Assembly (NCBI RefSeq): GCF_011009015.1
Contig: NZ_CP048878.1
Coordinates: 2,517,001-2,581,000 of the forward strand
Direction of reading: 5' to 3'
DNA length: 64,000 nucleotides
Source of the DNA: Spartinivicinus ruber
GTDB lineage: Bacteria; Pseudomonadota; Gammaproteobacteria; Pseudomonadales; Zooshikellaceae
A program made the position numbers and the translations under genes. The notes under the pieces were generated by a model. The model was given only the letters and a program-made list of their open reading frames with translations, was not told where the DNA came from and ran no database searches. This document shows, piece after piece, positions 11,966 to 30,191 of the stretch (positions within the stretch are counted from its first letter, which is position 1; each line of letters starts with the position of its first letter).

Positions 11966-12245
11966 GTTATCGTATGAAAAAATATTTATGAGATTGTATC
12001 AAAACTTAGCAGATATGAGCTAAGGCATAAGCCTTTTCAGAGCTTGAAGTGCTAGGGACAGTACTTCAAGAGCGGTGGAAGAATGTCCTGTTACTCCAAT
12101 TAAACACTCAGCTTACTTATTACTCCCTTTTGCGACACTCTGTTTTGCTAGGGAGGTGTAATAGAATTACTCCTGCCCCTTGATTTTGTCTTTATTGGTG
12201 GCCATATCTTAATCTTATAGAGAGAAAATGCTGTAAGAGGTGTTC

Positions 12246-12968: not shown

Positions 12969-13059
12969 GTACTTTTTGTTTTAAGATTATTAAAACTGCT
13001 CAGTAGAGGAGGCTAACTAACGTATTGTTAGTCACCGACGGATAAAAGGATATTTTGTT

Positions 13060-13839
13060 TTGTCTCAATTGTTGATTCTTATTGCACTAGTCGGTGGTTC
13101 CATTGCTTGGTATCAGTATCACCAGCTGCCACCAGAAGCGAGAAAAAAGTGGTTACAAAAATCAGCACTCATCGCCGCTATTTTGGTCTTTGCTTATTTA
13201 GTTATTACAGGACGTATATCAGTTGTTTTTGCTCTGTTGGCTGCACTTATTCCATTGTTAAGAAAAGCGCTCTCAGTGGCAAGCTATTGGCCATTACTAC
13301 AAAGACTTTGGGGACACAAAGCTATTTTCACTGGGGGGGCAGCAACAGCTCAACAGCAAACACATACGAAGGGCAAGCAATCTACGGTACGTACCCAATT
13401 ATTGTTAATGACTTTAGATCACAGCAGTGGCCACATCGAGGGTGAAGTGTTAGTGGGGCAATATAAAGGAAAGCAGCTAAGAGAATTAACTATTGAACAG
13501 TTAGCTGAGCTTTATTCCCATTGTCCTGCACAAGAACAAGATACTCGTCAGTTGTTGGATACTTATTTAAATAAAATGCGTACATCAGAATGGCAAGTGT
13601 TTCAGGATCAGCAGCAGTCTTCTTATTCCCAAGCGAAAAGTCATAGAGATAGTGGACCGATGACGGTTACTGAAGCAGCAGAGGTGCTAGGTGTAAAAAC
13701 GACAGCCAGCAAGCAAGAAATTATTGATGCCCATCGACGATTAATGGCAAAACTTCATCCTGATAAAGGGGGGAGTAGCTATCTAGCCATTCAAGTGAAT
13801 TCGGCAAAAGATGTGCTGTTAGCGCAGTTAAAAACCTGA
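13060..13839 (+). CDS. Membrane-anchored J-domain protein
   Basis: The first 75 or so residues contain three hydrophobic stretches (starting SQLLILIALVGGSIAW), then a basic linker and a C-terminal J domain. The J domain holds HPD at residues 233-235 followed by KGGS, the arrangement of TIM14/DjlC-like proteins rather than full DnaJ. It should dock an Hsp70 (DnaK-type) to the inner membrane. TTG 13060 is read as the start with AAAAGGA at 13044-13050. It lies between the VWA-like gene and a small membrane protein, all on one strand. Confidence 0.78.
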   Translation: MSQLLILIALVGGSIAWYQYHQLPPEARKKWLQKSALIAAILVFAYLVITGRISVVFALLAALIPLLRKALSVASYWPLLQRLWGHKAIFTGGAATAQQQTHTKGKQSTVRTQLLLMTLDHSSGHIEGEVLVGQYKGKQLRELTIEQLAELYSHCPAQEQDTRQLLDTYLNKMRTSEWQVFQDQQQSSYSQAKSHRDSGPMTVTEAAEVLGVKTTASKQEIIDAHRRLMAKLHPDKGGSSYLAIQVNSAKDVLLAQLKT

Positions 13840-13848
13840 TGGTTATCG

Positions 13849-14211
13849 ATGGTGGATATGGCGGTCTGGTTAACCACAATCCTATTAGCAAGCCTGATAA
13901 CAGTGAGTGTTGTGTTGTTACTGTTAAAAGTAAGAACGCCCCGCTATCGAGTAGAAAGGGCCAAAGCAAAAACCTTGCTTTACGATATTGTTAATGGCAG
14001 AGCTTCAGAAGAAGATTGGCAAATTTTTATCAGTATCCCTATTTATAATGATGAGCAATTAGAAGCTATCCGACAGCGTTGTTTGCAATTAGATGAAACA
14101 GAGTTTACCGGTTACTCAGTAACCAGTTCGTTTTTTCTCACGACACTGGCTATCAAAGAAATACGACAAATACTGGAAACATTGGAAGGTGATATTGTCT
14201 TTAGGGGGTAA
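13849..14211 (+). CDS. Small membrane-anchored protein of unknown function
   Basis: 120 residues. One N-terminal transmembrane helix (roughly residues 7-26) is followed by a basic stop-transfer stretch and a mostly helical soluble domain containing [14 protein letters not shown] do not recognise a family. It starts 9 bases after the J-domain gene and is probably co-transcribed. The start could also be ATG 13858. Confidence 0.6.
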
Positions 14212-14228
14212 TTAAAGGTGCAATTCAA

Positions 14229-14711
14229 ATGAGAATAAAGCCGTTTTGGTATGCTCTGATTAGCGCAGCTTTTTATAGTCAGTGTTATGGTGAAATAGTG
14301 GGAAAAGTTTCAACAACATTTAAGCTGCTGGGGGCTAATGACAAAATAGTGATAGAGGCTTTTGATGACCCTGATGTTAGTGGAGTGACTTGTTATTTAA
14401 GTCGGGCTAAAAAAGGTGGGGTGTCAGGTTCATTAGGACTGGCTGAAGATACCTCAGATGCTTCCATTGCATGTCGACAAGTGGGGCCTATTCAATTGTC
14501 TGATGAATTGAAAGCTGGCAAGTTGGATGGTGAACAGGTGTTTAAGAAACGTACTTCAGTGCTTTTTAAAACCATGCAAGTGGTTCGGTTTTATGACCCC
14601 AAACGACAAGTCATTATTTATCTGACCTATAGTGATAAGCTGGTAGAGGGGTCGCCAAAAAACAGTGTGACGGCTGTGCCGGTGTTGCCTTGGCCAACTT
14701 CAGCTAAATAA
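14229..14711 (+). CDS. creA: CreA family periplasmic protein
   Basis: 160 residues with an N-terminal signal peptide. [38 protein letters not shown] and [19 protein letters not shown] match the CreA family, conserved but of unknown biochemical role. AAAGGTG precedes ATG 14229. It is the last gene before a 270-base gap ahead of the ter operon, in which I see no gene. Confidence 0.85.
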
Positions 14712-14982
14712 TCTCCTATTCGTCTTGCTGAAACTTTGTTTCAGTTTATCTGTCACTATGGTAGATCTTTTAGGTTTTTTTCAACACAAGTCGCTTTTAA
14801 GTCGGCTACTGTAGTATATGTATTATCCATTTGGTGGTATAGGACTGCCCTGATTAATCTGAATAGGCGACTATTGGCGTCAATAAAGAACCATTATTAT
14901 TCTTATTGACTAGCTATAGGGGGTATGTCAAAGTGCTGCCTTCATATTATTGTATGAAACTTTATTAGGGCAAGGAGTCTAT

Positions 14983-15591
14983 ATGGCAATTTCATTAACT
15001 AAAGGTCAACGTATTAGCCTTGAAAAAGAAGCGGGTAAAAACCTTCAACAAATTTGTGTAGGGGTAAACTGGGGCGCAATAGAGAAAAAAGGTTTTTTTG
15101 GCGCTAAAAAAGTGCCAGTTGATCTGGATGCCAGTGTAGGCTTGTATAACGAAAACAAACAGCCTGTCGATGTCGTTTATTTTGGTCAACTAAGAAGTAA
15201 ATGTGGTTCAATTCATCATAGTGGTGATGATTTAACAGGCGACATGGAAGGTGATGACGGTTTAGATAACGAAGTAATCACGATTAATTTACAGCAAGTG
15301 CCTCAAGGTGTCTCGGCGGTTGCTGTGGTGCTTAACTCTTTCCGTAAACAAGATTTTGCAGCAATTCCTTTTGCTTCTATTCGGCTATACGAAGGCACTC
15401 CTTCAAGAGTGAATAATATTTTAGCTACCTATGATATTGCTAACGATCCGTCATTTTCAGGTTCTATCTCAATGGTGTTGGGTATTTTGTATAAGAAAGA
15501 CGGCGACTGGAAATTTAAAGCTGTGGGTGAAGCCACACGGGACCAAGGGCTAGAACAAACCATTGAAACAGTTTCTCGCTCGTATATCTAG
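14983..15591 (+). CDS. terZ: TerD-family protein, TerZ-like
   Basis: TerD-family proteins are calcium-binding stress proteins of tellurium-resistance clusters. This one has MAISLTKGQRISLEKEAGK at the start, VDLDASVGLYN, and an acidic loop GDDLTGDMEGDDG, the metal-binding region. ATG 14983 is backed by AAGGAG at 14972-14977. As first gene before terA, terB, terC, terD and terE it occupies the terZ place. It differs from its two paralogues downstream by an insertion (EKKGFFGAKK) before the DLDAS motif. Confidence 0.85.
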   Translation: MAISLTKGQRISLEKEAGKNLQQICVGVNWGAIEKKGFFGAKKVPVDLDASVGLYNENKQPVDVVYFGQLRSKCGSIHHSGDDLTGDMEGDDGLDNEVITINLQQVPQGVSAVAVVLNSFRKQDFAAIPFASIRLYEGTPSRVNNILATYDIANDPSFSGSISMVLGILYKKDGDWKFKAVGEATRDQGLEQTIETVSRSYI

Positions 15592-15663
15592 TGACCTAAG
15601 TAGGGAATAGTTGTTTTATTCTCGGATAGGTTACTTGTTTACAGCACCAAGGAATTTGTTGAA

Positions 15664-16749
15664 ATGCAGTCATTGATACCTGGGCAGAATGCAAAAGTTG
15701 ATAATCCAATCGTGACCCTTCGCATTGAAGGCAATATGGGGGTCAGGTGGTTGAGTTTAGTACTTGATGATCAACAACAGGTTGTTCAGGGAACATGCAC
15801 AGGTATCAACCAGGTTAATGATATGACTTGGTTGATTCAGCCTTTTGAATTACCTAGTCACGTTAATAAAATTAAATTCATTGCTTATGGTGATGATAGT
15901 TTAGCTGCTTTAGTTAGTCAGTTGACTGTGTTTTATACAGATATACTGTCTGATCAGCCACTTTTTGAGGTAAAAGCTGCACTGGACAGTAGTCGCAATG
16001 AATCGTTATTAATAGTATCTGAGCTTTATCGCCACCAAGATAACTGGAAAGTCCGATCAGTTTGTCAAGGGTTTAATGAAGGAATAATGCAGCTGGAAAA
16101 ACAATATAATATTTCCCTTGCTGAATCCGCACCTTCTGCCAGTAACACTGCAAGTAAAACACAATCAACGTCTACAGCTGCGAGCAATACCCAAGCTAAA
16201 GACGTCCTTCACCCTATTTCAACAGAAGATTTATTTGTCACATTAACCTGGAATAACCAGTTAAACCCCCATGATCCAATCAATAATGTGCTTGACTTTG
16301 ATCCTGTCAATGATTTGCGAATAGGGGCGTTTTATGAATTAAGCAATGGTCAACGAGGGTTGGTACAATCTTATGGTGAAGAGCGTGGCTCTTATTACGG
16401 GGTGCCTTATATTCATGCACTGAGTCATGAAGAGCAACGTGTTCAGCAGTTGCACTTAAATACTCAGTATTGGCATAAGTCTTATCGAGTTTTAGTTTAT
16501 TGTTTTATTTTAGAAGGGTTAAGCCAATGGAATAAATTAGGTGCCAGCATTGATTTTAACAAATTAGACCAAATAAATATTAATTCCTACCGTTGTGATC
16601 AGCCATTATGTGCCGTGGCAATGATAGAAAGAGTTGCTCAGCAATATAAGCTCACCCCACTTGTTGAGTTTTTTGATTCTTTGGTTGCAATGGATCAAGC
16701 CTATGGGTGGGGGCTGCCCTGGCGTTCACAACAACAAAACCCAGAATAG
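15664..16749 (+). CDS. terA: TerA-like tellurium-resistance protein
   Basis: 361 residues, near the length of TerA (about 385). The N-terminal half resembles a divergent TerD-like domain (VRWLSLVLDDQQQVV; KIKFIAYGDD) without the full acidic metal loop. A Ser/Thr/Ala-rich linker near residues 150-178 leads to a second domain with DLFVTLTWNNQL and a DFDPVNDLRIGAFYEL stretch reminiscent of TerD. It lies between terZ and terB, as in the E. coli terZABCDE order. Its role is not established; the name rests on position and domain pattern. Confidence 0.75.
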   Translation: MQSLIPGQNAKVDNPIVTLRIEGNMGVRWLSLVLDDQQQVVQGTCTGINQVNDMTWLIQPFELPSHVNKIKFIAYGDDSLAALVSQLTVFYTDILSDQPLFEVKAALDSSRNESLLIVSELYRHQDNWKVRSVCQGFNEGIMQLEKQYNISLAESAPSASNTASKTQSTSTAASNTQAKDVLHPISTEDLFVTLTWNNQLNPHDPINNVLDFDPVNDLRIGAFYELSNGQRGLVQSYGEERGSYYGVPYIHALSHEEQRVQQLHLNTQYWHKSYRVLVYCFILEGLSQWNKLGASIDFNKLDQININSYRCDQPLCAVAMIERVAQQYKLTPLVEFFDSLVAMDQAYGWGLPWRSQQQNPE

Positions 16750-16760
16750 AGGATTGAATT

Positions 16761-17219
16761 ATGGCAGGTGGATTTAGTGGCTTTTTAAACTCGCTAAAAG
16801 AAAAAGCCGGTGAACTAAAAGATGATGTAATGAAATTTAAGAATAAAAATTTCTTAAATGCGGCAACTGGTGGTGCTGCGTTAATTGCTTTAGCTGATGG
16901 CTCGATTGACCCTGAAGAAAAGCGAAAAATGATCAAGTTTATTGAGAATAATGAAGCATTAAAAGTATTTAAAATGACCGAAGTGGTCTCTGCATTTTCT
17001 GAGCATGTGAGTAATTTGGAATTTGATAAAGATATTGGTGAGTCCAAAGCCTTTGAAGCACTTAACAAGCTTAAAGGCAATGAAGTCGCCTGCCGTACAG
17101 TAATGCGTTTGATTATTGCTATTGCCGCAGCCGATGGTAATTTTGATATGGATGAAAAAGCCGTTGCACGTAAAGTTGCTGTAGAGCTGGGGCTGAACCC
17201 AGCAGAATTTGAGCTGTAA
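16761..17219 (+). CDS. terB: TerB family protein
   Basis: 152 residues, the TerB length. Helical repeats with the acidic motifs LIALADGSIDPEEKRKM and IAIAAADGNFDMDEK are the paired metal-coordinating loops of TerB domains. E. coli TerB interacts with membrane-bound TerC. GAGG precedes ATG 16761, 11 bases after terA. terC follows within 18 bases. Confidence 0.92.
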   Translation: MAGGFSGFLNSLKEKAGELKDDVMKFKNKNFLNAATGGAALIALADGSIDPEEKRKMIKFIENNEALKVFKMTEVVSAFSEHVSNLEFDKDIGESKAFEALNKLKGNEVACRTVMRLIIAIAAADGNFDMDEKAVARKVAVELGLNPAEFEL

Positions 17220-17237
17220 GTTATTAAGGCGTTGTCG

Positions 17238-18266
17238 ATGGAATCATTTGGTTTTCCTTTGGAAGCAGTGATTGTTTTGTTTGTTGTGGTTGCTGCTTCT
17301 GTTTGGTGTGATTTATTTAGCCACCGTAATTCAACTGAAATAAAATTTAAAGATGCTTTAGGCTGGTCCGTTTTTTGGGTGGCTTTAGCCATTGCATTTT
17401 ATGCCTATTTATACCTTCGTTATGAGCCCAAGTGGGCTGACTTGTTTTTAACTGGCTATGTGCTGGAAAAAACTTTGTCAGTGGATAACATGATGGTGTT
17501 TATTGCTATTTTTGCTTCTTTTGGCATTAAGGGAGCACTACAGCACCGGGTACTTTATTACGGTATTGTTGGAGCACTGTTATTTAGAGCTATTTTTATT
17601 GCGGTAGGCACTTCCTTATTTGGCTTAAGTGTGTGGGTGGAATTTATCTTTGGTTTAATCGTTGCCTGGACTGCAGTCTTAATGTTGAAAGGCGGGGATG
17701 AGGAGGAGGTTGAAGACTACTCTAATCACTGGTCTGTCCGTTGGACTAAAAAGTTTGTTCCAGTATTGCCTCGCTTAAATGGCAATAAGTTCTTTATTAA
17801 GCACAATGAAGTCGAGCAACTTAAAGCAACTGACTCCAGTTTAACTGTGGTGGGTAAAGCGGCCTTTTATGCGACGCCATTGTTTTTGTGCTTAATCTGT
17901 ATTGAGATAAGTGATATTGTTTTTTCATTTGACTCTGTACCAGCCATTATTGCAGTAACAGAAGAACCTTTCTTGGTTTATGCTGCAGTAATCTTTGCTA
18001 TTCTTGGCCTGCGTAACCTTTATTTCATGCTAGCGGTTGCAGCTAAATACTTATGTCACTTGGAAAAAGCGGTGGCATTTGTTCTATTCTTCATTGCATT
18101 TAAACTGTGTGCACAAGCGGCTGAACATATTTGGGAATTCAGCTTTGAAATTACCCACAGTATGAGCTTGTTTATTGTATTAGGCACAATCACTTTAGGT
18201 GTCGTGGCTTCTATTTTGTTTCCAGAAAAAGAAGAATCAAACACAAATAATAGCGAAGTGGTTTGA
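17238..18266 (+). CDS. terC: TerC family integral membrane protein
   Basis: 342 residues and about nine membrane segments. The TerC signature is clear: LEKTLSVDNMMVFI and CIEISDIVFSFDSVPAI hold the acidic membrane residues thought to handle metal ions. ATG 17238 with AAGG at 17226-17229 is preferred over TTG 17232. TerC proteins have been linked to manganese or other metal export and to a membrane complex with TerB and TerD. Confidence 0.93.
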   Translation: MESFGFPLEAVIVLFVVVAASVWCDLFSHRNSTEIKFKDALGWSVFWVALAIAFYAYLYLRYEPKWADLFLTGYVLEKTLSVDNMMVFIAIFASFGIKGALQHRVLYYGIVGALLFRAIFIAVGTSLFGLSVWVEFIFGLIVAWTAVLMLKGGDEEEVEDYSNHWSVRWTKKFVPVLPRLNGNKFFIKHNEVEQLKATDSSLTVVGKAAFYATPLFLCLICIEISDIVFSFDSVPAIIAVTEEPFLVYAAVIFAILGLRNLYFMLAVAAKYLCHLEKAVAFVLFFIAFKLCAQAAEHIWEFSFEITHSMSLFIVLGTITLGVVASILFPEKEESNTNNSEVV

Positions 18267-18324
18267 TACCGACTGCTTTAAGATTTTTAGCAAAGGGTGT
18301 AATCACAATTAAGGAGAAATTATC

Positions 18325-18897
18325 ATGGCAATTAGTTTACTGAAAGGTGGACGGGTCAACCTTGAAAAAGAAGCACCGGGCTTGACCAAACTGCACGTAG
18401 GTTTAGGTTGGGATATCCGTGCGACAGATGGTGCTGCATTTGACCTTGATGCTTCACTATTAATGGTTAATAACGAAGGCAAGGGCATTGGTGAAGGTGG
18501 TTTTGTTTTCTATAACAACACCAAGTCTGCTTGTGGCTCGATACAGCATATGGGCGACAATCTGACAGGTGAAGGGGAAGGTGATGATGAGGTAATTAAG
18601 GTTAACCTTGCTAATATCCCTGCTGATGTTGAAAAATTAGTTGTTGTGGTGACAATTCATAATGCTGAAGAAAGAAGGCAAAACTTTGGTTTAGTTGAAA
18701 ATGCCTTTATTCGTATTTTAAATGATGATAATCAACAAGAAGTTGTACGTTATGATTTAACTGAAGATTACTCAACAGAAACCTCATTAATTTTTGGTGA
18801 AATTTATAAAAAAGACGGAGAGTGGCGTTTTGTTGCTAAAGGCGATGGTTTTGCTGGTGGGTTAGCTGCATTTTTACAGACCTATGGTCTCGCTTAA
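18325..18897 (+). CDS. terD: TerD-family stress protein
   Basis: 190 residues, close to E. coli TerD (192). FDLDASLLMV and the calcium-binding loop [13 protein letters not shown] are complete, as is VVVTIHNAEERRQNFG. AAGGAG lies 8 bases before ATG 18325. Clear paralogue of the next gene; the pair matches terD and terE. Confidence 0.93.
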   Translation: MAISLLKGGRVNLEKEAPGLTKLHVGLGWDIRATDGAAFDLDASLLMVNNEGKGIGEGGFVFYNNTKSACGSIQHMGDNLTGEGEGDDEVIKVNLANIPADVEKLVVVVTIHNAEERRQNFGLVENAFIRILNDDNQQEVVRYDLTEDYSTETSLIFGEIYKKDGEWRFVAKGDGFAGGLAAFLQTYGLA

Positions 18898-18948
18898 AAG
18901 CATTTGCATTAGTTATATTAGTTGATAATAAGGACAGGAGAGAAAAAA

Positions 18949-19527
18949 ATGGCTGTTACTTTACAAAAAGGTGGTAATGTTAGCTTAGAAAAAACTGCAC
19001 CTGGTATGACCAATGCGGTTATTGGTTTAGGGTGGGATGCTCGGTCAACAGATGGTTCTGACTTTGACTTGGATGCTTCTATTTTTATGGTTGGTGAAGC
19101 CGGTCAGGTACGTAGTGATGCTGACTTTATTTTCTACAATCAGCTGAAAAGTCAGTGTGGTTCTGTTGAGCACATGGGCGATAACCGAACAGGTGAAGGG
19201 GAAGGGGATGATGAGTCAGTAAAAGTTGACTTGGTCAAAATCCCTACTGATATTCAAAAAATCGTTATTGGTGTCACTATTCACGATGCAGAGTCAAGAA
19301 ACCAAAACTTTGGCCAGGTTTCTAACGCTTTTATACGCATTGTGAATGAAGCTAATAACGAAGAAGTGGTTCGCTATGACTTGAGTGAAGACTATTCTAT
19401 TGAAACGGCGATGCTATTTGGTGAATTATATCGTCATGGTGGTGAATGGAAGTTTCGTGCCGTAGGCCAAGGGTTTAGCGGTGGTTTGAAAGCCATGGCG
19501 ACTCAATACGGGGTTAATGTGGGTTAA
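18949..19527 (+). CDS. terE: TerD-family stress protein (TerE)
   Basis: 192 residues from ATG 18949, preceded by [33 protein letters not shown] and [15 protein letters not shown] are the same blocks as in terD. Last gene of the operon; a strong terminator follows. No terF is present in the window. Confidence 0.92.
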
Positions 19528-19559
19528 ATTATAATAGATATACCCTAGATAGTTATTGT

Positions 19560-19586
19560 CAGGCGGCATTTGCCGCCTGTTTTATT
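19560..19586 (+). terminator. Terminator of the ter operon
   Basis: CAGGCGGCA, a 2-base loop and TGCCGCCTG followed by TTTTATT. It ends terZABCDE and makes the next gene run a separate unit. Confidence 0.9.
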
Positions 19587-19608
19587 ACTTTAAGAAGTAG
19601 TCCTTCCC

Positions 19609-20745
19609 ATGGATGCAAAAGTCGAAATTCAGTCAGGCTCATTAATCTTTAATATCAATCATCACCTTAGTAGTCAGCATTATAGCCTGCTTGATTTGTT
19701 AACATTTGGCGCCAGGCAAAATCCCAAGCGAGGCTATTTATTTATTTCGAAAGTATTGGGGAAACACATTCCCTGCAAGCCTTCTTTAATGGCAGAAACT
19801 TACCAGGTACTGTCTAAAAAAATTCAATTAGCTAGTAGCGGACCAACTCTAGTTGTTGGTTTGGCAGAAACCGCTACAGGGCTAGGCGCTGGTGTAGCGG
19901 AAGCCTTGGCAAATGATGGGCATGAGGTATTGTATACCCATACAACCCGCTATCAGTTAACAAATGTGCCCACCATTTTTAGTATTGATGAAAGCCATAG
20001 TCATGCACCCGCTCATATTGTGTATCAGCCATTGCAACAGCTGCAAATACAGCAGGTAGAAACAGTAGTGTTGGTTGATGATGAAATTACGACAGGTAAT
20101 ACTTTATTCCAGTTAGCAGAAAATTTACGCCAATATATTGGTAGCTTAAAGAAAGTTATTTGGGTGAGTTTGGTTAGTTGGTTATCTGAGCGGCGTAAAG
20201 CTGAAATACAGCAGTTATTAGCAGGTATTGAAGTGTCGTTTATTTGTTTAATGGCAGGAGAGTTTAACTTCACTCCAAATCTCGATTTTACTTGTGACTT
20301 GCCTACCAAAGCCCAGCAGCAACTTTCTCAGCAATCAGTGCTAGCTGAAATACGTACTGGTATTACCTTTGAAGAGGATAGCACTAGTTTTTATTCGGTA
20401 AATGGTGAATGCTTTACTTTAGATGGTTTAGCTAAAACTGAAAAATATACCGTATTAGGGTATGGTGAGTTTTTATATCAACCTTATAAATTAGCCGAGT
20501 TAATGGAAAACCAGGGCTTTGATGTTGTTTTTCAGTCAACGACACGCTCTCCTATCATTGAAGGAAATGGTATTAAACGGAAAGAAGTATTTACCGTTGA
20601 AGATGGCTATGAAAACTATGTGTACAACCGGCCTGCAACACGGATGACCATTATTGCTTATGAAACCTATGCCCAATATCTAAGTTGTGGATTAGCTCAA
20701 CAAATTGAGTGTATTCCTGTGATTAAACAGCAGGTTGAGGTGTAA
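19609..20745 (+). CDS. Phosphoribosyltransferase-domain protein of the ter metabolite module
   Basis: 378 residues. VVLVDDEITTGNTLFQLAEN is a PRPP-binding loop of type I phosphoribosyltransferases, preceded by VVGLAETATGLGAGVAEAL. The C-terminal third (SRSPIIEGN-like TTRSPIIEGNGIKRKE; GYENYVYNR) matches the TRSP domain that accompanies this enzyme in ter clusters. The family is proposed to build a nucleoside-like compound, but the substrate is unknown. It is the first gene of a compact four-gene run. Confidence 0.8.
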   Translation: MDAKVEIQSGSLIFNINHHLSSQHYSLLDLLTFGARQNPKRGYLFISKVLGKHIPCKPSLMAETYQVLSKKIQLASSGPTLVVGLAETATGLGAGVAEALANDGHEVLYTHTTRYQLTNVPTIFSIDESHSHAPAHIVYQPLQQLQIQQVETVVLVDDEITTGNTLFQLAENLRQYIGSLKKVIWVSLVSWLSERRKAEIQQLLAGIEVSFICLMAGEFNFTPNLDFTCDLPTKAQQQLSQQSVLAEIRTGITFEEDSTSFYSVNGECFTLDGLAKTEKYTVLGYGEFLYQPYKLAELMENQGFDVVFQSTTRSPIIEGNGIKRKEVFTVEDGYENYVYNRPATRMTIIAYETYAQYLSCGLAQQIECIPVIKQQVEV

Positions 20746-20747
20746 AA

Positions 20748-21506
20748 ATGTCACTAGTCGTATTTACTGACATTGACGATACGTTAATACAAACAGAGCG
20801 GAAATGTGTAGGCAATGACAAGTTGCACCCAGGAGCTGTTGATCGAAATGGTCAGGTCATTTCTTTTTATACCGAGAAGCAGCATAAATTAATTAGCTTA
20901 TTGAGTGATGGCGTATTAATTCCAGTAACAGGAAGAAACTATGCGGCATTATGTCGTACTCAGCTTACATTTAGTCATGAAGCAGTTATTAATCATGGGG
21001 CATTAATTCTCAATCATGATTGTACCATTGATGAGGGGTGGCTACAGCTTATTGAGTTTGAAGTTGATCCTTGGCAAGAACAGCTGGTGGAATGGGTAAG
21101 GCAGGTCCAGCAGGTTATTGATCATGAGCAGTTGCCACTTCGGACGAATGTGATTACTGACTTTGATATAAGCTGTTATGTCAGTATTAAAGTAGACAAT
21201 CAGGCGAATAAAATTGAGGACTTTTATCCGTTATTGAAGCCGGTTATCGAGCAAGTGAATGCACGACAGGAAGCGCGAATTCATATCAATGGCCGTAATA
21301 TGGCATTATTACCGCCATATGCATCAAAAGCTAAAGCAGTGAATTATTTAAAGCAAAAATATCAATCTTTAAATAACCATACGTTATTTGTTGGTGCAGG
21401 GGATAGTTTGAGTGATATCGCATTCATGAAAGCCTGTGATTATCTGGTGGTACCGCAAAACAGCCAAATCACTGATAGTGCATTTAACGAATACATTGGG
21501 GAATAA
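20748..21506 (+). CDS. HAD-superfamily hydrolase (Cof-like)
   Basis: 252 residues. FTDIDDTLIQT is HAD motif 1 with the nucleophile and acid-base Asp pair. LIPVTGRN is motif 2, and GAGDSLSDIAFMKACD is motif 4. The cap is of the C2 type used on sugar phosphates and nucleotides. It starts 2 bases after the phosphoribosyltransferase stop with GAGGTG as ribosome site, so the two are translationally close. It is probably the phosphatase of the pathway. Confidence 0.82.
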   Translation: MSLVVFTDIDDTLIQTERKCVGNDKLHPGAVDRNGQVISFYTEKQHKLISLLSDGVLIPVTGRNYAALCRTQLTFSHEAVINHGALILNHDCTIDEGWLQLIEFEVDPWQEQLVEWVRQVQQVIDHEQLPLRTNVITDFDISCYVSIKVDNQANKIEDFYPLLKPVIEQVNARQEARIHINGRNMALLPPYASKAKAVNYLKQKYQSLNNHTLFVGAGDSLSDIAFMKACDYLVVPQNSQITDSAFNEYIGE

Positions 21507-21507
21507 C

Positions 21508-22617
21508 ATGGGGCAGCAGCAATTATTAACCGGAAGTTATCACCCAAATGATTGTCAGTTTCTCCTTCAAGAAGCTGAAGGGATAGAGCTACTGACAGTT
21601 GCAGAAAAAGAGCAGCGTTTGCAGGCTGGTACTCATTATTCTCAAATGGTATCGATTGAACAGGCTCCAACAAGGGCCTATCTCGATATTTTTTATAAAT
21701 TAACAGCTAAATACAAAACCAGATTAGCTACAGAAATTTTCCAGCTAGCTAAATTACTTCAGCAAGCAATAGGCAGCTCAATTACTTTAGTGTCTTTAGC
21801 TCGTGCAGGTACACCGATTGGTATTTTGTTGAAGCGGGCTTTATCTGCGTTGGGAGATATTTCAGTTCAACATTATTCCATTTCTATTATTCGTGGCAAG
21901 GGAATTGATGAAGCAGCTTTGTCTTATTTGCAAAGCATCGGCGTGAAAGCTGAATCTATCGTATTTGTTGATGGTTGGACAGCAAAAGGAGCGATTACCC
22001 GTGAGCTAAAACAGGCCATAAAAACTTGGAATCGTAAAAACCCCGATTATAAACTTAGTGATAAGTTATGTGTGGTTTCGGATATTGGCTATACCGCTCA
22101 CTATGTGGCTACCCACGATGACTATGTTATTCCTTCCGGTATTTTAAATAGCACCGTATCAGGTTTAGTTTCGCGAACCATTCGTGACCCGAATGTAGTC
22201 GGTTTTCATCAGTGTGTCACCTATCATAACTTGCAGTCGCATGACTTAAGTAATTGGTTTATTGAAGAAGTTGCCAGTGAAATAACTCGGCTTGATCCGT
22301 CAACGGTGCAAATAGCTACAATGCTCAGTCAACAAATTCAGGCTCAACAACATCAGGTGATATTGAGCTATTTAACTCAAATAATGAAAGCTCAGGGTAT
22401 TAAAGATATCAATAAAGTGAAACCGGGTATTGCGGAAGCAACTCGGGTAATGCTTCGTCGAATTCCAGACTTATTAATATTAAATAATAAAAATCAAGAA
22501 GATGTTGAACACCTTCTTCTGTTAGCAGCGGAAAAGCAGGTAAGGGTGGTTGTTGACCCAGCCATGCCTTTTAATGCATTAGCCTTGATAAAAGATTTAA
22601 CAAGGAGTGAATCATGA
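21508..22617 (+). CDS. StiP-type protein (putative cysteine protease / PRTase-like with Pelota domain)
   Basis: 369 residues from ATG 21508, directly after the HAD stop. LLTGSYHPNDCQFLL near the start and SLARAGTPIGILLKRAL, VFVDGWTAKGAITREL and SDIGYTAHYVATHDDY are hallmark blocks of the StiP family. It combines a phosphoribosyltransferase-like core with a C-terminal Pelota-type RNA-binding domain. Database names call it a cysteine protease; I would not trust that activity without experiment. Overlaps the next gene by 4 bases. Confidence 0.8.
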   Translation: MGQQQLLTGSYHPNDCQFLLQEAEGIELLTVAEKEQRLQAGTHYSQMVSIEQAPTRAYLDIFYKLTAKYKTRLATEIFQLAKLLQQAIGSSITLVSLARAGTPIGILLKRALSALGDISVQHYSISIIRGKGIDEAALSYLQSIGVKAESIVFVDGWTAKGAITRELKQAIKTWNRKNPDYKLSDKLCVVSDIGYTAHYVATHDDYVIPSGILNSTVSGLVSRTIRDPNVVGFHQCVTYHNLQSHDLSNWFIEEVASEITRLDPSTVQIATMLSQQIQAQQHQVILSYLTQIMKAQGIKDINKVKPGIAEATRVMLRRIPDLLILNNKNQEDVEHLLLLAAEKQVRVVVDPAMPFNALALIKDLTRSES

Positions 22618-23489
22618 AAGGGGCTGAACAACTGTATTATCAATTAGGGGCAACGCTTTATATGCCCGCTATCAGATCTGATTTGGTTCAGCGATTGATG
22701 GCCACTCAGGCAGGTTCTGTCGTGCTTTGTACTGAAGATGCTATCTCTGAGCACCAAATTGAAGATGCATTAAAAAACATTAATAAGTTGTTGACGAGTT
22801 TTCCTCAGATTAATACAAGCGTGTTTATTCGCGCTCGCTCGCCAGGGGTATTAGCGAATTTACTGGCATTGGACACGATTGAGCACATTAAGGGGTTTGT
22901 TATTCCTAAAATCGATCACAGTAATGTGCATGAATATAAGGCAGCAATTGAAGATTCAGGTAAAGAGAAGTTTTACTTAATGCCAACCATTGAAACTGAA
23001 ATAGCCTTCGATAATCAGGAGCTAATTCGGCTGAGGAAGTTAATGGATACTTTCCCGGTTGGAATACCCTGTTTTCGCATTGGTGGTAATGACTTATTAA
23101 GCTTGCTGGGGATTAAACGACCTGATTATGTGACGATATATGAAACCCCTGTACGAATAGCGATTGATAATTGCATTACTGCCTTTAGGCCTTTTGGTTA
23201 TCAATTGTCAGCGCCTGTATTTGAGTTTATTGATGATGAAAACATACCCTTGTTAAAAAAAGAGCTGATGCTTGATCGTGCATACGGTTTTTTAAATAAA
23301 ACTGCTATTCATCCTACTCAGGTTAGTTTGATTCAGGATATTCTTTCTATCAGAAATGAGGAGTTGGATTTAGCCAAAGAAATTATTCGACATCAGGATA
23401 AAGCCGTTTTTAAAGCTGGGGGGCAAATGTGTGAGCCTTCTACTCATATCAATTGGGCAAAAAAGGTGCTTGCCATTGGTGGAAGGTAG
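22614..23489 (+). CDS. HpcH/HpaI aldolase / citrate lyase-like protein
   Basis: 291 residues of the citrate-lyase beta-subunit/aldolase TIM-barrel family. VFIRARSPG, VIPKIDHSN and LMPTIETEIAF resemble the substrate- and Mg-binding strands, and NKTAIHPTQVSLI is the conserved C-terminal element. Its start overlaps the StiP stop (ATGA), indicating coupled translation. It is expected to cleave or join a C-C bond in the ter-linked metabolite pathway; substrate unknown. Confidence 0.8.
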   Translation: MKGAEQLYYQLGATLYMPAIRSDLVQRLMATQAGSVVLCTEDAISEHQIEDALKNINKLLTSFPQINTSVFIRARSPGVLANLLALDTIEHIKGFVIPKIDHSNVHEYKAAIEDSGKEKFYLMPTIETEIAFDNQELIRLRKLMDTFPVGIPCFRIGGNDLLSLLGIKRPDYVTIYETPVRIAIDNCITAFRPFGYQLSAPVFEFIDDENIPLLKKELMLDRAYGFLNKTAIHPTQVSLIQDILSIRNEELDLAKEIIRHQDKAVFKAGGQMCEPSTHINWAKKVLAIGGR

Positions 23490-23495
23490 TGGCAA

Positions 23496-23774
23496 ATGAA
23501 TGATAACCAAATCAATAAGCTATCCTGGAATAAAGTGTGTGCGACACTGGTTCAACAGGCTAGACAGAAAAACGACCTGACTTTTCGGGATTTGGCTGAA
23601 TTGATTAAGCAAAAAACAAGTATAGATATAGAGCCAAATAATTTAGCTAATCGTGTTAACCGGGGAAACTTTTCTGCCTCTTTATTGCTTGCGGCTTTTT
23701 TTGCAATGGAAGAACCGTTGCCAAATAGTGGTGACTTAGAAAATATTATCGTTGAGGTATTTGAACAGCTATAA
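23496..23774 (+). CDS. Small DUF6471-like protein
   Basis: 92 residues. SWNKVCATLVQQARQKNDLT, FRDLAEL and NRVNRGNFSASLLLA resemble DUF6471 proteins, which look like short helix-turn-helix regulators. It begins 6 bases after the lyase gene, so it is likely the last gene of the metabolite run and may regulate it. The family match is from memory. Confidence 0.6.
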   Translation: MNDNQINKLSWNKVCATLVQQARQKNDLTFRDLAELIKQKTSIDIEPNNLANRVNRGNFSASLLLAAFFAMEEPLPNSGDLENIIVEVFEQL

Positions 23775-23825
23775 GCTTAATCTGAATATTTCAGTGTATA
23801 TTTGTTATAGCTTGTTTTAAGAGTT

Positions 23826-24152
23826 GTGCCGATATCACTATCGCTTGCTGTATTTATTACAGCATTAATGGTTTATTTTTTTAGCTATTGGATTATCCGT
23901 AAATTATGTATTGAAATATTAGCTGATAATGATCAGTTTGTTGTTGCTGTTGTTTTGGCGCCCTTCAATATCTCGCATATTGTGGTAAAAGTCTTCTTTG
24001 AATATCGAGTTAAATGTAGTTTTTACACTGGTTGGTCAGGCATTGGTTTTGCTCCCGGAATGAATATTTTAGATTTAAATCACAAGTCGTTACCTGTCAT
24101 GCTACGGAGTGCTTTTATTATAAATATATTAAATGTATTTATATTAATTTAA
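23826..24152 (+). CDS. Possible small membrane protein
   Basis: Open frame of 108 residues from a GTG with two or three hydrophobic stretches (ITALMVYFFSYWIIRK near the start). No convincing ribosome site and no family recognised. It could be chance; the next 290 bases up to 24442 hold nothing I can identify. Confidence 0.3.
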   Translation: MPISLSLAVFITALMVYFFSYWIIRKLCIEILADNDQFVVAVVLAPFNISHIVVKVFFEYRVKCSFYTGWSGIGFAPGMNILDLNHKSLPVMLRSAFIINILNVFILI

Positions 24153-24442
24153 ATGATAATAGAGGTTTAAATAAACCAGTGGGTAAAGATCATGTGTACA
24201 TATTGTTATAATAAAAGAATTTTTATAACAATATGTAGGTTATGGCCTCCCTAGCTTCCTTCCTCTTTTAGCAAGAAGCTTCTTTAGAGTATTTGTGCAT
24301 AAATATGTGGACAAAAAATAGTCTAACATGTAATATGGTTGAAGTTTTACATGTGATGTCTTAATGGAGCATATATAGCAATTATCCATGGCAAAGACAT
24401 AGCAGCAATTTCAGTCATGTTGTAAGCAGGAGGTAGAGGCTT

Positions 24443-24907
24443 ATGAGTATCTTGAACAAATTAATGTTAGCTATCCGTGGTAATACAGCGGTTTCGTGTG
24501 AAGACCATGTGGAAGTAGTGGTTGATAACCAGGTATTGCAGGATTTTGAGCAGGCGATTGCTGCAGCACATGTAATTATTAAAGACTCTAAAATAGCATT
24601 GGAAAGTCAGTTAAAAAAGCAACAGCTATGCATTACCCGATATGAGCAAATAAAAGCAAAAATCAATGGTATGGTTCAAGATGCTACTGATGCTTTAGGT
24701 AAAGGAAATGAAGCACTGGCAGTTAATGCGACGAAAGTGATTGCAGATTATGAGATTCAATTGGAGTTAGCTGAAAAGCAAAAAGACGAGATGGCCTTAA
24801 AAGCAAAATCGTTAAGGCAGGCTACTATTGCAGCAGAAATAAATCTTAAGAGATTGCAGCAACAAAGGGAAGTGTATCAAACGACAGGGGTTGTGCAAGA
24901 AGGGTAA
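24443..24907 (+). CDS. Short PspA/IM30-like protein
   Basis: 154 residues, almost entirely charged coiled-coil helix, with MSILNKLMLAIRGN at the start in place of the PspA amphipathic helix. PspA/Vipp1 proteins are about 220 residues and form membrane-protecting rods; this one lacks roughly the last third. AGGAGG precedes ATG 24443. No PspB, PspC or PspF is near, so it is not a classical psp operon. Its neighbour is the ter island, another envelope-stress set. Confidence 0.7.
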   Translation: MSILNKLMLAIRGNTAVSCEDHVEVVVDNQVLQDFEQAIAAAHVIIKDSKIALESQLKKQQLCITRYEQIKAKINGMVQDATDALGKGNEALAVNATKVIADYEIQLELAEKQKDEMALKAKSLRQATIAAEINLKRLQQQREVYQTTGVVQEG

Positions 24908-24908
24908 G

Positions 24909-25448
24909 TTAATCGTTAAATTTAATCGTCTTGATTAAGCTGTTCAACTCTTGACAGGAAGAGTGACCCTCTTCACAAGCGGTGTAAATTTCAAGGATAT
25001 AGGTGTTTTTTAAAGCAGCATAATTTTGTTCAAGGGTTTTTACTGCAGGGTCATAATTAATAGCAGTACTAATATTGTCAAATTGTACCCCACCTATAGA
25101 TTGGTTATCTGTTTTATGTGGGGTATCTGGGGAAGGCAGCTTATTTTTGATTAGGTAATCTTTTGCTGAAGTGGCCCCTTCAGCATCTTCTTTTGAGATA
25201 ATACTGATAGCGAAAACGCTATTGGTATTTTTTTTATTCGCTTCAAACATAACCTGTTCATCTAACTTCAATTGATAATTTATTTGGTTTCCTGATGTTT
25301 GTTGGTTTTGGATATTAGCGTCAAGAATTTCCCAGGATTTGTCCATAGTAATGGATAGTGATATTGTTTCGGCAGCAACAGTTGTTGAGATAGCGCTTAA
25401 TATGCCAAGTACAGTGCTCTTAGCTAATAACATGACATGCTTATTCAC
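24909..25448 (-). CDS. Exported protein of unknown function
   Basis: About 179 residues read from GTG 25448, which follows AAAGGT with 6-base spacing. A signal peptide ends at TTVAA before ETISLS. The mature part has a cysteine pair in TACEEGHSSCQEL near the C-terminus that could form a disulfide. Family not recognised. Its stop lies 1 base from the PspA-like stop on the other strand. Confidence 0.65.
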   Translation of the reverse strand: MNKHVMLLAKSTVLGILSAISTTVAAETISLSITMDKSWEILDANIQNQQTSGNQINYQLKLDEQVMFEANKKNTNSVFAISIISKEDAEGATSAKDYLIKNKLPSPDTPHKTDNQSIGGVQFDNISTAINYDPAVKTLEQNYAALKNTYILEIYTACEEGHSSCQELNSLIKTIKFND

Positions 25449-27122: not shown

Positions 27123-30100
27123 CTAGTGAATAATAACCCAATGATTGGTCATTTTGAATGACCAGGGCTGTCGCCAGCGGAGCTGACGTTGGCTTTCGAA
27201 CCAAAACAGGGTTTTCACCAGTTGATAGGTGGTTTGATTCACTTGCTGCTGGCTACTGTTGCTGCTTTGATATACAGCTGTTGCTAAGCTAATTTTATTA
27301 GCCAACTGTTGTTGTGCTTTAGCAGGGAAATACCACAGTGGGTTATGATTGGCCTGTTTAAGCCGGTAATTAGCTGTTTCAATTGTGGCTGCTAATCCTG
27401 CTTTGTAAACAACTGGACGAAAGTTGTCAACTTTAGTCAGCACTTGTTTTAGATTATTAACTACACGATCGACTTGTTGCTGGGTAGATTGATTGTTTGA
27501 CTGGGTTTCAAGTGCTTGGAGTAAATGGGTAGTGAGGGACCATTTTAGAGAGTAAGGATAAAAGCCCTCAATATCTTTAATAACTACTTCTTGATAAACA
27601 GACCAAGCCTGCTCAACTAATTGATTAAGTTCGGCTTTAACTGGTTGTTTAGGCTCAAATTGAAATTCGATAATAATAGGGTCGTGATCAGAGGCGCTAA
27701 AAAGGCTGTCAGATTTTGGTAATTGGCCTGAATATTTACGGCTATATTCAAACAGGCTGTTTTCCACAGAGTTAATATGCCAGCCAACAATATCAACCAT
27801 TTTATTTGCTAGTTTTGGAGAAGCCAAGGCATGATCTAAATTACCTAACTCACCTTCGTAGCTGTAACTAAATGTTTTGTTGCCTTGAGCGTGGGTGTTT
27901 AAATTGATAAAACCATACCCGGCTACAATGGTTTGAGGCGGTTGCCAAGATTTGCCTGCTAACACAGTGTGGGCTGCTGTTTTGATTGGGCGTGATATTT
28001 GACTTGCCTGATAATCTGTGAGGGTGAGTAGAGGGTCTTCCTGGCCGTAAGCATTTAGATCGCCAAGAATGAGGATATTATTGCTTAATGATTTTTTATA
28101 TTGTTTTAGGTACTCCCCTAAACGATAAGCAGCGGAAACCCTCAATTCATTACAACTGCCTTGTAAGTCATCGACATAATTGGGAGCAGTAGGCTTACCA
28201 GTAACTTGGCCTTTATTATTAAGAGGGATTTTGCCATCAACTGCATATTCCAAGTAATCTTCAAGACACATCGAGCCTTTGGATTTAAAGTGGTTAACAA
28301 CAATAGAGAGTACTTCTCCTGTTTGGGTTTTAAAGGTTTGAATTAAACCGTCACGTTGTCCTTTATTAAAGTTACGGGTTTTGTTTTCTGTAGTGGTGAC
28401 TGTGAACTGTTGATGAGGCATGGTGACGATATGGGCATTACCCACTAATGCTATCTTAGCAGGGCGATATAAAATCCCGACAGTAATTGCATCGTTACCA
28501 ATGTAAGCGGCAACAGCTGGTTTCACAAATTGGTAATGATCATCAGGGTTGCTGATCATTTGATTCAGTGCCGTTACTAAAGAATGGATAGCACTGCTTT
28601 CACTGAAACCGTTATTCTCAATTTCCATTAAGCCGACAATATCTGCATCCATGGCGACTAGGGCATTAACGATTTTGGTTTGTTGTAATTCGAAATCAGT
28701 TAAACGAGTGGCGCCACGATTTTGATTGTTGGCTGGGTTACTTGCTGCACCAGGTACGACATGGTTAAAGTAGTTTAGGACATTAAAGCTGGCTATACGC
28801 AAGTTACCGTGTTGTTTGAGTGGTGGCGTTGCCTGCCGAGGATAGTGGTGGTGGCTAAACGCATTGTCAGCAATTAACTGAGTTGGGATAACACTGTATT
28901 GGCCATAAGCATATTTAATGACACCGGTTAACTGATCAACAGTGTCGCCAATGCGAATATAAAACTGATTAGGCTCAAAGGGGGGATAAAAGCTAATCAC
29001 GCCATCTTGTTGTTTATGGTCGGTTTCAATAGTGATTTGATTTTGTTGGTTTGCTTTTGCCAGCTGCTTAGCTTCTTCACTAAGTGCAGGAAATAACTGT
29101 GTTGGCTTATATAAAGGGGTGCCTTGAGTAAGAGTCATATCATTACGCCGGCTTTTAAAGTTGAAACCATAATTTTTGGTGACAGTTAATGACGCATCAC
29201 CTTGCCAACGGACTTGCATACCTTCATATGGCTCTAATGCCTGTAAAGTTGTTTCGGCAGATAAGTCAACAATTTGAGTCGTATCTTGGTGTTGTCCCAT
29301 TGGTGAACAAACTTTGGCTTGCTTTAAGACCAGTTGAGTTTCGTTATAATGTTCCTTGACCAAGCCTTCTACACGTACTTTATCACCAACATTAACAGCA
29401 ACTATCGGGTTACCATATACAAAGATTCCTTCAGAGGTGTTGGGATTGTTATCTTCATCAGTGATTTCTTCTTGCATAAAGAAACCCTGATAACGATTGG
29501 GTGTTAATTTAGTAACAATACCTTCTACTAAAAAAGAGGTGTCACTTTGGCGCTTATCAGCAGGAATGAGTGGGCTACGGTCTCCAGCGCCTTGTAGTTG
29601 ACTAATTAATGTAACATCATTTGTTGTACAGCTAATGGTGTTTTGATTAGGTGAGCCTGTCAAGTCTACCTGGCCTAAGGTAGCTGCCATTACTTCGGGA
29701 TCATTGGCAGGTGAAAATTGCCACTGAGAAGTTTGGTATTGTTGACTGGCTTTTGCTGTTGTACGTTGAATGGTTTTATCTTTACCAAAGTTGGTGCGTT
29801 GTCCAGGTGTACCAATAATATCCAGTAGCTGTTGGTTGTTGAATAAAGCAATAGGGTCATCCCCATTAAAGTTGACCGCCTGGCTGTCTGTTATCAGTTG
29901 AGCTTTATTTTTAATGGCTTCAACTGCTTTTGAGTAGCTGATAACGAAAGTGGTTTTAGCTGCGAGATTACCACTAAGAGCTAAAGTGTTGGTTTTATTT
30001 GGGTCGCCATTGGTGTATTTGGTTAGTTTGTAATTGGCTAGGTTAATAGATTGTGAAGAGGGGTTATATAACTCAATTGCTTTATTGTAGCTTTTACCCT

Positions 30101-30191
30101 CACTGTATTCGCTGATTATAATTTCAGCACTCAGTGGCAGGCTCAGATAAGCGCCAAGACCTGCAATAAGTGATTTATGGAGTTTAGTCAT
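27123..30191 (-). CDS. Large secreted ExeM/NucH-type endonuclease with lamin-tail domain
   Basis: About 1022 residues. A signal peptide ends at LSA before EIIISEYSEG, which begins a lamin-tail domain (EYSEGKSYNKAIELYN). An OB-like section follows, then an endonuclease/exonuclease/phosphatase domain with LRIASFNVLNYF, LMEIENNGF, VNHFKSKGS, ILGDLNAYGQEDP and SASDHDPIIIEF, the full catalytic set. A helical C-terminal extension of about 200 residues is unlike known parts. This family degrades extracellular DNA in marine bacteria. Start 30191 has AAGAG upstream; the upstream ATG at 30236 would delay the signal peptide. Confidence 0.88.
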   Translation of the reverse strand: MTKLHKSLIAGLGAYLSLPLSAEIIISEYSEGKSYNKAIELYNPSSQSINLANYKLTKYTNGDPNKTNTLALSGNLAAKTTFVISYSKAVEAIKNKAQLITDSQAVNFNGDDPIALFNNQQLLDIIGTPGQRTNFGKDKTIQRTTAKASQQYQTSQWQFSPANDPEVMAATLGQVDLTGSPNQNTISCTTNDVTLISQLQGAGDRSPLIPADKRQSDTSFLVEGIVTKLTPNRYQGFFMQEEITDEDNNPNTSEGIFVYGNPIVAVNVGDKVRVEGLVKEHYNETQLVLKQAKVCSPMGQHQDTTQIVDLSAETTLQALEPYEGMQVRWQGDASLTVTKNYGFNFKSRRNDMTLTQGTPLYKPTQLFPALSEEAKQLAKANQQNQITIETDHKQQDGVISFYPPFEPNQFYIRIGDTVDQLTGVIKYAYGQYSVIPTQLIADNAFSHHHYPRQATPPLKQHGNLRIASFNVLNYFNHVVPGAASNPANNQNRGATRLTDFELQQTKIVNALVAMDADIVGLMEIENNGFSESSAIHSLVTALNQMISNPDDHYQFVKPAVAAYIGNDAITVGILYRPAKIALVGNAHIVTMPHQQFTVTTTENKTRNFNKGQRDGLIQTFKTQTGEVLSIVVNHFKSKGSMCLEDYLEYAVDGKIPLNNKGQVTGKPTAPNYVDDLQGSCNELRVSAAYRLGEYLKQYKKSLSNNILILGDLNAYGQEDPLLTLTDYQASQISRPIKTAAHTVLAGKSWQPPQTIVAGYGFINLNTHAQGNKTFSYSYEGELGNLDHALASPKLANKMVDIVGWHINSVENSLFEYSRKYSGQLPKSDSLFSASDHDPIIIEFQFEPKQPVKAELNQLVEQAWSVYQEVVIKDIEGFYPYSLKWSLTTHLLQALETQSNNQSTQQQVDRVVNNLKQVLTKVDNFRPVVYKAGLAATIETANYRLKQANHNPLWYFPAKAQQQLANKISLATAVYQSSNSSQQQVNQTTYQLVKTLFWFESQRQLRWRQPWSFKMTNHWVIIH

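Follow-up and report, generated by a model that had tools for sequence, protein, structure and literature searches.

Does a set of enzyme genes that sits beside a ter (tellurite-stress) cluster without an ATP-grasp ligase point to undescribed chemistry? The question is raised by a locus of Spartinivicinus ruber within a stretch of 64,000 nucleotides (GCF_011009015.1, NZ_CP048878.1, positions 2,517,001-2,581,000), referred to here as the window; its genome (G000) is complete and measures 6.69 Mb. Five genes on the + strand of the window adjoin the last terD gene. They encode a phosphoribosyltransferase of the PRTase_2 family with a TRSP domain, a HAD phosphatase, a StiP-family protein with a PELOTA domain, a C-C bond lyase and a DUF6471 protein. 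The original prediction singled out this locus as a standout for undescribed chemistry because of the missing ATP-grasp. Our results point in another direction. On balance, the locus is probably a functional version, without an ATP-grasp, of the Ter-associated biosynthetic pathway already known, with PRTase_2-TRSP, HAD, StiP and the lyase as its core and the Ter ATP-grasp as an optional tailoring ligase.

A Ter-associated biosynthetic module beside ter genes was reportedly proposed by Anantharaman, Iyer and Aravind in 2012. This proposal is cited in the parts of PMC7824862, PMC12054061 and PMC8115787 that were available to us. The available text of PMC7824862 describes a Ter system in which signals are made by phosphoribosyltransferases and HAD enzymes, sensed by TerB and TerD, and followed by a membrane response. 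That of PMC8115787 presents the Klebsiella ter cluster as a putative biosynthetic cluster, with a predicted nucleoside-like metabolite or a role in DNA processing. The statement in the original prediction that such sets have been proposed as makers of a nucleoside-like compound agrees with PMC8115787, and five features of the set are found in the window: PRTase_2 with TRSP, HAD, StiP with PELOTA, the lyase and linkage to ter. The window locus belongs to the known Ter-associated set; the nucleoside-like product is a proposal from the literature only.

The four enzyme families expected just 3' of the ter genes were confirmed by Pfam, adjacent to one another and on the + strand. PRTase_2 with its C-terminal TRSP domain (19609..20745) matched PF15609 with 200 bits and PF12500 with 60 bits, StiP with its PELOTA/L7Ae-like domain (21508..22617) matched PF11202 with 304 bits and PF15608 (PELOTA_1) with 96 bits, and the lyase (22614..23489), of the HpcH/CitE TIM-barrel family, matched PF15617 with 277 bits. 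These scores are all far above cut-off. The match of the HAD phosphatase (20748..21506) is modest and of sugar-phosphatase type (S6PP 31.2 bits, cut-off 20.3; Hydrolase_3 24.5 bits, cut-off 20.9). The PRTase_2 loop VDDEITTGNT is presumably a motif of the type that binds phosphoribosyl pyrophosphate (PRPP), and the lyase matched five PDB entries, comprising acyl-CoA, citrate and malyl-CoA lyases (E 3e-7 to 4e-5). As predicted, a small DUF6471-like gene closes the run (23496..23774, + strand, 92 amino acids; PF20075, 38.6 bits against a cut-off of 26.8). The genes are indeed tightly spaced, with junctions of +2, +1, -4 (ATGA) and +6 nt in order when the StiP start is taken as ATG 21508, but the predicted overlaps of a few bases are confined to a single pair, the StiP stop and lyase start (4 nt). 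The list of open reading frames starts StiP earlier, at GTG 21436, in which case 71 nt would overlap.

The absence of an ATP-grasp from the window was borne out for the Ter type, and it extends to the whole genome. With a probe built from an alignment of 18 Ter ATP-grasps (A4), no Ter ATP-grasp was found in G000; the best match, a frame of 1081 amino acids that is probably CarB on our assumption, reached 21.5 bits. In the same search 12 true Ter ATP-grasps scored 363-454 bits, all other matches stayed below 65, and the two genomes that served as positive controls gave 443 and 454 bits. Given the distance between 21.5 bits and the scores of true members, the Ter ATP-grasp is absent genome-wide from G000. 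The Pfam family PF15632 matched an ATP-grasp+GNAT fusion in G000 (a 607-codon frame, 35 bits) and the 1081-amino-acid frame (26 bits); this family is not specific, since matches occurred in 13 of 14 control genomes.

How usual is this absence? We compared gene content across 91 loci, consisting of the best 80 of 597 confirmed genome loci, four relatives, four plasmid loci, two phage loci and the window. The 80 genome loci are the best-scoring ones and hence lean to close relatives. A profile search found an ATP-grasp in 40 of the 91 loci, including one fragment of 64 codons where a contig ends (L099, 40 bits). Seventy loci were assessable, with no less than 6.5 kb to either side of the StiP start; the remaining 21 were dropped as too short on one side. 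Of the 70 assessable loci, all found by StiP, 66 contained PRTase_2, 67 HAD, 65 the lyase, 63 a ter gene and 30 a Ter ATP-grasp. We also drew 369 genomes of the class and counted matches to StiP over its cut-off, to PRTase_2 at E <= 1e-10 and to the lyase at E <= 1e-20. StiP and PRTase_2 occurred in the same nine genomes (G230 is 58% complete, and the matches in G153 are partial), and the lyase in seven of these nine and in none of the other 360. A Ter ATP-grasp of more than 300 bits, scored among at most five candidates per genome, was found in two of the nine, in one of them on a contig other than that of StiP. Nine further genomes of the draw, with weak StiP matches below cut-off only, were left out of the count.

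Since the core genes are present in 65-67 of 70 loci and the ATP-grasp in 30, together with the counts from the class draw, the four core enzymes travel together, and the Ter ATP-grasp is the optional, variable part of the set in the samples taken. The assumption that such sets usually bring ATP-grasp ligases misplaced the emphasis, both for the assessable loci and for the class genomes with StiP. An ATP-grasp is often missing (40 of 70 loci), and therefore its absence is ordinary and does not single out the chemistry of the window locus. The original prediction had also held that an ATP-grasp in the same operon family would speak against it. This objection holds, as such genes do exist in the clusters of relatives, G012 and L029 among them; the window genome itself has no Ter ATP-grasp.

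A Ter ATP-grasp may also lie apart from the module. In 40 genomes without an ATP-grasp in the examined stretch (those reached through loci are of unestimated completeness, and several of these are metagenome-assembled), a Ter ATP-grasp was present elsewhere in 10 (those of L028, L030, L035, L074, L077, L081, L087, L088, L095 and L101) and not found in 30. Four of these ten sites were examined. In the genomes of L087 and L077 the gene and a lone TerD gene are about 0.7 kb apart and lie away from the genome's own ter module (L127:7212-9511 and L128:5244-7541, respectively), while no ter gene was recognised near the sites in the genomes of L028 and L035. Two further loci differ in composition. 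On an IMG/VR contig (L124:5901-14360), genes for a Macro-domain protein and an ADP-ribosylglycohydrolase come after a Ter module that includes an ATP-grasp; by single-sequence search, neither protein had a relative in the 91 loci. A plasmid of Rhizobium phaseoli (L018:8711-11967) carries PRTase_2, StiP and HAD, with no lyase and no recognised ter gene in the locus.

A tree was built from 76 loci in which the four-gene core was complete; the other 15 of the 91 were left out. It was a quick tree, and it raised warnings about long branches and about differences in composition. The window falls in a group of ten with a support of 99 in the Shimodaira-Hasegawa-like approximate likelihood ratio test (SH-aLRT), together with G001 and G002 (same genus), G003 (same family), Endozoicomonas, Vibrio sagamiensis, three Halomonas-type loci and the contig L028. 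None of these loci carries an ATP-grasp, and the nearest row outside the group, L029, does. G003 had no label in the tree, as its contig ends 5.7 kb downstream, and no Ter ATP-grasp was found in its genome. The ATP-grasp label changes six times on the tree, a number as low in 0 of 500 shuffles, although near-copies help the labels to cluster and could cause the same result. Of the group's nine whole genomes, eight are without a Ter ATP-grasp (best scores 60 bits in G404 and 46 bits in G406), and the genome of L028 has kept one, unlinked, on another contig. The window's group has probably lost the ATP-grasp or separated it from the locus. Unlinking followed by loss fits these observations; the direction is not readable from the tree alone.

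The module itself is intact and under purifying selection. The full run, including DUF6471, occurs in unchanged order in G001, G002 and G003, and none of the five genes contains an internal stop. The ratio of nonsynonymous to synonymous substitution (dN/dS), a rough figure here with synonymous sites near saturation, was 0.100 for PRTase_2, 0.083 for HAD, 0.080 for StiP, 0.065 for the lyase and 0.069 for DUF6471 in comparison with G001. In comparison with G003 it was 0.151 for PRTase_2, 0.090 for StiP and 0.040 for the lyase, with HAD and DUF6471 saturated. Residues that we take to be of catalytic kind are kept as well. In HAD, D8, D10, K194, D219 and D223 are found in all 87 aligned rows. In PRTase_2, all 81 filled rows show D158, E159 and G163, and 78 of the 81 show D157. 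In the lyase, E127 and R155 are present in all 82 rows and D160 in all 81.

In StiP, ten residues are invariant in 91 rows (S98, R101, G103, P105, G107, R131, D157, W159, K162 and G163, numbered with 21502 as the start and two lower if counted from the Met at 21508). An AlphaFold2 model based on 49 sequences reached a predicted local distance difference test (pLDDT) score of 95.8, and its comparison with the PDB by Foldseek returned 50 listed matches, of which 47 are named phosphoribosyltransferases of the hypoxanthine type. The titles of the other three (4rab, 4rac and 4rad) name inhibitors and break off ahead of the enzyme. Template modelling (TM) scores were 0.40-0.57 by target length and 0.21-0.30 by query length, which indicates that the domain is common to these proteins while the proteins are distant. 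StiP is thus predicted to have a phosphoribosyltransferase fold. All 11 profile matches of its C-terminal domain were of L7Ae type (best E 2e-4).

The HAD phosphatase could be linked to an enzyme of known structure. Eleven NCBIfam HAD models matched the window protein, every one below its own cut-off, and its two PDB matches, 6d3v and 6cj0, are both named 'trehalose phosphatase' (E 1e-26). The HAD of the ter module on a Pseudomonas aeruginosa plasmid (L019) is identical to 6d3v at 233 of 251 positions over its full length, as counted from the alignment, and its sole cysteines are residues 85 and 231. The same two cysteines are named for Paer-ecTPP, an extrachromosomal enzyme assayed as a phosphatase, in the available part of PMC6838324, which describes it as a trehalose-6-phosphatase, cites Cross et al. 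2018, credits such enzymes with exquisite substrate specificity and prints no PDB codes. Because the codes are missing there, we infer from the sequences that 6d3v and 6cj0 represent the assayed Paer-ecTPP, which would then lie in a ter module. A literature search found no paper that joins the enzyme of 6cj0, 6d3v and 6d3w to ter.

Between terD and the module lies a GC-rich hairpin with a T-rich tail, a candidate terminator or attenuator (19560..19579, + strand; eight pairs, seven of them GC), which ends 29 nt before the ATG at 19609. The fold of 19528-19615 is better than that of shuffled sequences (z -3.17; 2 of 200 as good). A hairpin is found at the equivalent position in G001, G002 and G003, by eye with a weaker stem in G003; where the window has C-G as the outer pair, G001 and G002 have T-A. 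A scan of 14000-25000 gave 14 terminator-like matches, above the shuffle mean of 7.9 (sd 3.3), among which this hairpin has the most GC pairs; the 26 promoter-like matches were not above the shuffle mean of 32.7. The gap of 29 nt is too short to hold both a promoter and a start site. We conclude with moderate confidence that the hairpin is an attenuator between ter and the module.

Could the pathway still depend on an ATP-grasp, supplied in trans by another enzyme of the genome? A true Ter ATP-grasp does occur elsewhere in 10 of 40 genomes, near a lone TerD at two of the four sites examined, and the ATP-grasp+GNAT fusion of G000 exceeds the PF15632 cut-off, as do its counterparts in G001 and G002. 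However, this fusion was not listed in G000 against the Ter alignment at E <= 0.001, and in G001 and G002 its score was only about 20 bits; by eye it adjoins genes that resemble those for peptide transport. Its 35 bits against PF15632 also compare with 76-160 bits for Ter members, although the separation is weakened by an unrelated-looking G404 gene with 71 bits. Moreover, G003, which has the same module and DUF6471, has just a match of 1087 amino acids at 23 bits. Supply in trans is therefore rather unlikely. An alternative explanation might be that the module is a decaying remnant, given the probable fate of the ATP-grasp in the window's group, unlinking or loss. Decay was rejected as highly improbable, because all five genes are open without internal stops, dN/dS is 0.065-0.10 against G001 and 0.04-0.15 against G003 (three genes, with two saturated), residues of catalytic type are kept, and the gene order is the same in all three relatives.

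Other alternatives concern single parts of the locus. StiP has been labelled a cysteine protease, which might cut Ter proteins or their partners. The names in Pfam and RefSeq are all that speaks for this, and the label appears on 38 of the 40 plasmid records listed, out of 2568 with a match. Yet StiP has no conserved cysteine: the best column is C in 64 of 91 rows and is the sole window-filled column above 60%. Its invariant residues form phosphoribosyltransferase-like motifs, and no protease is among the 50 fold matches listed, so that we rejected a protease function as hardly credible. Likewise, the near-identity of the L019 HAD to 6d3v, its two shared cysteines and the stated substrate specificity in PMC6838324 might suggest that HAD is a true trehalose-6-phosphatase and that the module serves trehalose-type metabolism. 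Trehalose-6-phosphate synthase (PF00982), however, was not found in 19 of the 22 module-bearing genomes searched, including G000 (0 matches), while the E. coli control was positive, and the window HAD matched no trehalose-phosphatase model of Pfam or NCBIfam. A trehalose pathway was consequently rejected as very unlikely. Trehalose 6-phosphate may instead stand in for a substrate of similar size, for example a phosphoribosyl compound. Finally, the module might have its own promoter and be controlled independently of ter, with the small DUF6471 protein acting as a regulator, and the terminator-like hairpin, found at the same place in three relatives, would suit such an arrangement. A separate transcription unit, as claimed in the original prediction, would require a promoter inside the hairpin or upstream of it, for which the promoter scan gives no support, and the short gap before ATG 19609 argues against it as well. 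For the DUF6471 protein, the single-sequence model is too poor for a judgement (pLDDT 53.9), the profile matched only about 20 residues of ribosomal uS10 in the PDB, and one viral match spans 28 residues; by eye it looks like a small helix-turn-helix protein, an unsupported impression. Separate regulation of this kind is thus doubtful. DUF6471 at 23496 is the single match in G000, and it adjoins the module in four of the 91 loci, all from the window's own family.

We therefore return to an ATP-grasp-free form of the Ter-associated pathway, which is carried by the gene content, the residues of catalytic type, the predicted fold of StiP, the genome-wide absence and recurrence of the pattern, and purifying selection. 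Judging from fold and motif, the reactions and their order, the product class, sensing by TerD/TerB and attenuation might be as follows. The lyase would build or trim a ring or acyl precursor, which PRTase_2 would couple to PRPP. StiP, with a second phosphoribosyltransferase fold, an altered loop (VDGWxxKG) and an L7Ae-like domain, may perform a further ribosyl-phosphate step or hold the product, and HAD would take the phosphate off. The resulting small ribose-derived product could be read by the TerD/TerB proteins encoded just upstream. In lineages with an ATP-grasp, this product would receive an amide-linked cap; the window lineage would use it uncapped. The module would probably be transcribed by read-through from ter, past a hairpin that lowers the level.

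Several points weigh against this reading. The Foldseek matches cover only part of StiP. A standard PRPP loop has a second acidic residue that the VDGWxxKG loop of StiP lacks, and StiP may therefore not be a phosphoribosyltransferase by reaction. The assayed relative of HAD is a trehalose-6-phosphatase and not a nucleotidase. A ter gene is missing from 7 and the lyase from 5 of the 70 assessable loci, and one class genome without StiP has a Ter ATP-grasp match of 155 bits. A non-Ter ATP-grasp of the genome could supply the ligase step, and none of our analyses established a substrate or product of the module enzymes.

Tentatively, one could go further and suppose that the four-enzyme core alone makes the full signal here, a dephosphorylated ribosyl compound of roughly disaccharide size, and that capping by the Ter ATP-grasp yields a form specific to certain lineages; we regard this as possible but not likely. 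A product of that size would account for a module HAD that accepts trehalose 6-phosphate. If true, ter systems would use at least two chemical dialects, each matched to its own TerD/TerB readers. The product of the ter-linked enzymes is a long-open question, which our results narrow in that the steady unit consists of four enzymes and not five. Because these four stay together, the ATP-grasp-free locus offers a simple system in which to seek the compound. Two further outcomes are the sequence link between a crystallised phosphatase and the pathway, and the doubt cast on the 'cysteine protease' label of StiP.

The ter genes upstream of the module are all on the + strand. They start with a TerD-domain protein (14950..15591; PF02342, 134 bits; 90-98% identity in G001, G002 and G003) and a protein of 361 amino acids with a partial TerD domain (15664..16749; PF02342, 37.8 bits; 74-84% identity in the same relatives), followed by TerB (16761..17219; PF05099, 65 bits) and a TerC-like membrane protein (17232..18266; 61% identity to a Halomonas plasmid gene annotated TerC/Alx; dN/dS 0.05). 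Two TerD genes complete the run (18325..18897, PF02342, 263 bits; and 18922..19527, 92-95% identity in relatives), the last with a listed TTG start at 18922 and an ATG at 18952 that gives the relatives' length. In five Chromatiaceae loci (L041, L068, L075, L094 and L096), TerD, a TerD-related gene and TerB sit between PRTase_2 and HAD, so that ter and module genes are interleaved. The region 5' of ter in the window (12240-14711) encodes CreA, a DnaJ-domain protein and an unassigned protein of 242 amino acids (vWA-like by eye); the genes of the latter two adjoin ter in G001 and G002 too. Downstream of the ter region lie a protein of 1037 amino acids on the - strand (27123-30236), which contains a Lamin Tail Domain and matches the endonuclease/exonuclease/phosphatase family just below cut-off, and an IS1595-type transposase gene (31255-32190). 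A scan of nine window proteins against PADLOC-DB 2.0.0 found no defence system, with one partial match of PRTase_2 to PRTase_III-A (20.5 bits) and none for the other eight, and an anti-phage defence system of those listed by PADLOC was rejected accordingly.

Compared with known systems, the window shares PRTase_2 with TRSP, HAD, StiP with PELOTA and the C-C bond lyase beside TerB, TerC and TerD with the Ter-associated module of 2012, but it is without a Ter ATP-grasp in the cluster or genome and has DUF6471 at its 3' end. The P. aeruginosa structures 6cj0, 6d3v and 6d3w belong to the same HAD family as the window protein, and their entries are named after the assayed substrate. In the Acinetobacter jumbo phage ME3, PRTase, HAD and StiP likewise occur with TerC and TerD, and no ATP-grasp lies within the 21 kb examined (phage described in the available part of PMC7824862). 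This cluster differs from the window in that it is phage-borne and has no C-C bond lyase within those 21 kb. The IncHI2 ter locus on the Leclercia plasmid pE61_001 (L017) has PRTase, HAD, StiP and lyase in the same order as the window. In contrast to the window, its operon starts with an ATP-grasp, its module is divergent from terZ-terD, and DUF4236, TerW and TerY-type genes follow. A plasmid of Halomonas sp. I5-271120 (L016) shows the same arrangement as the window, TerB-TerC-TerD-TerD-PRTase-HAD-StiP-lyase on one strand, and no Ter ATP-grasp was found in a search of the plasmid alone. After the lyase, however, it carries a gene of 243 amino acids and a further TerD, where the window has DUF6471.

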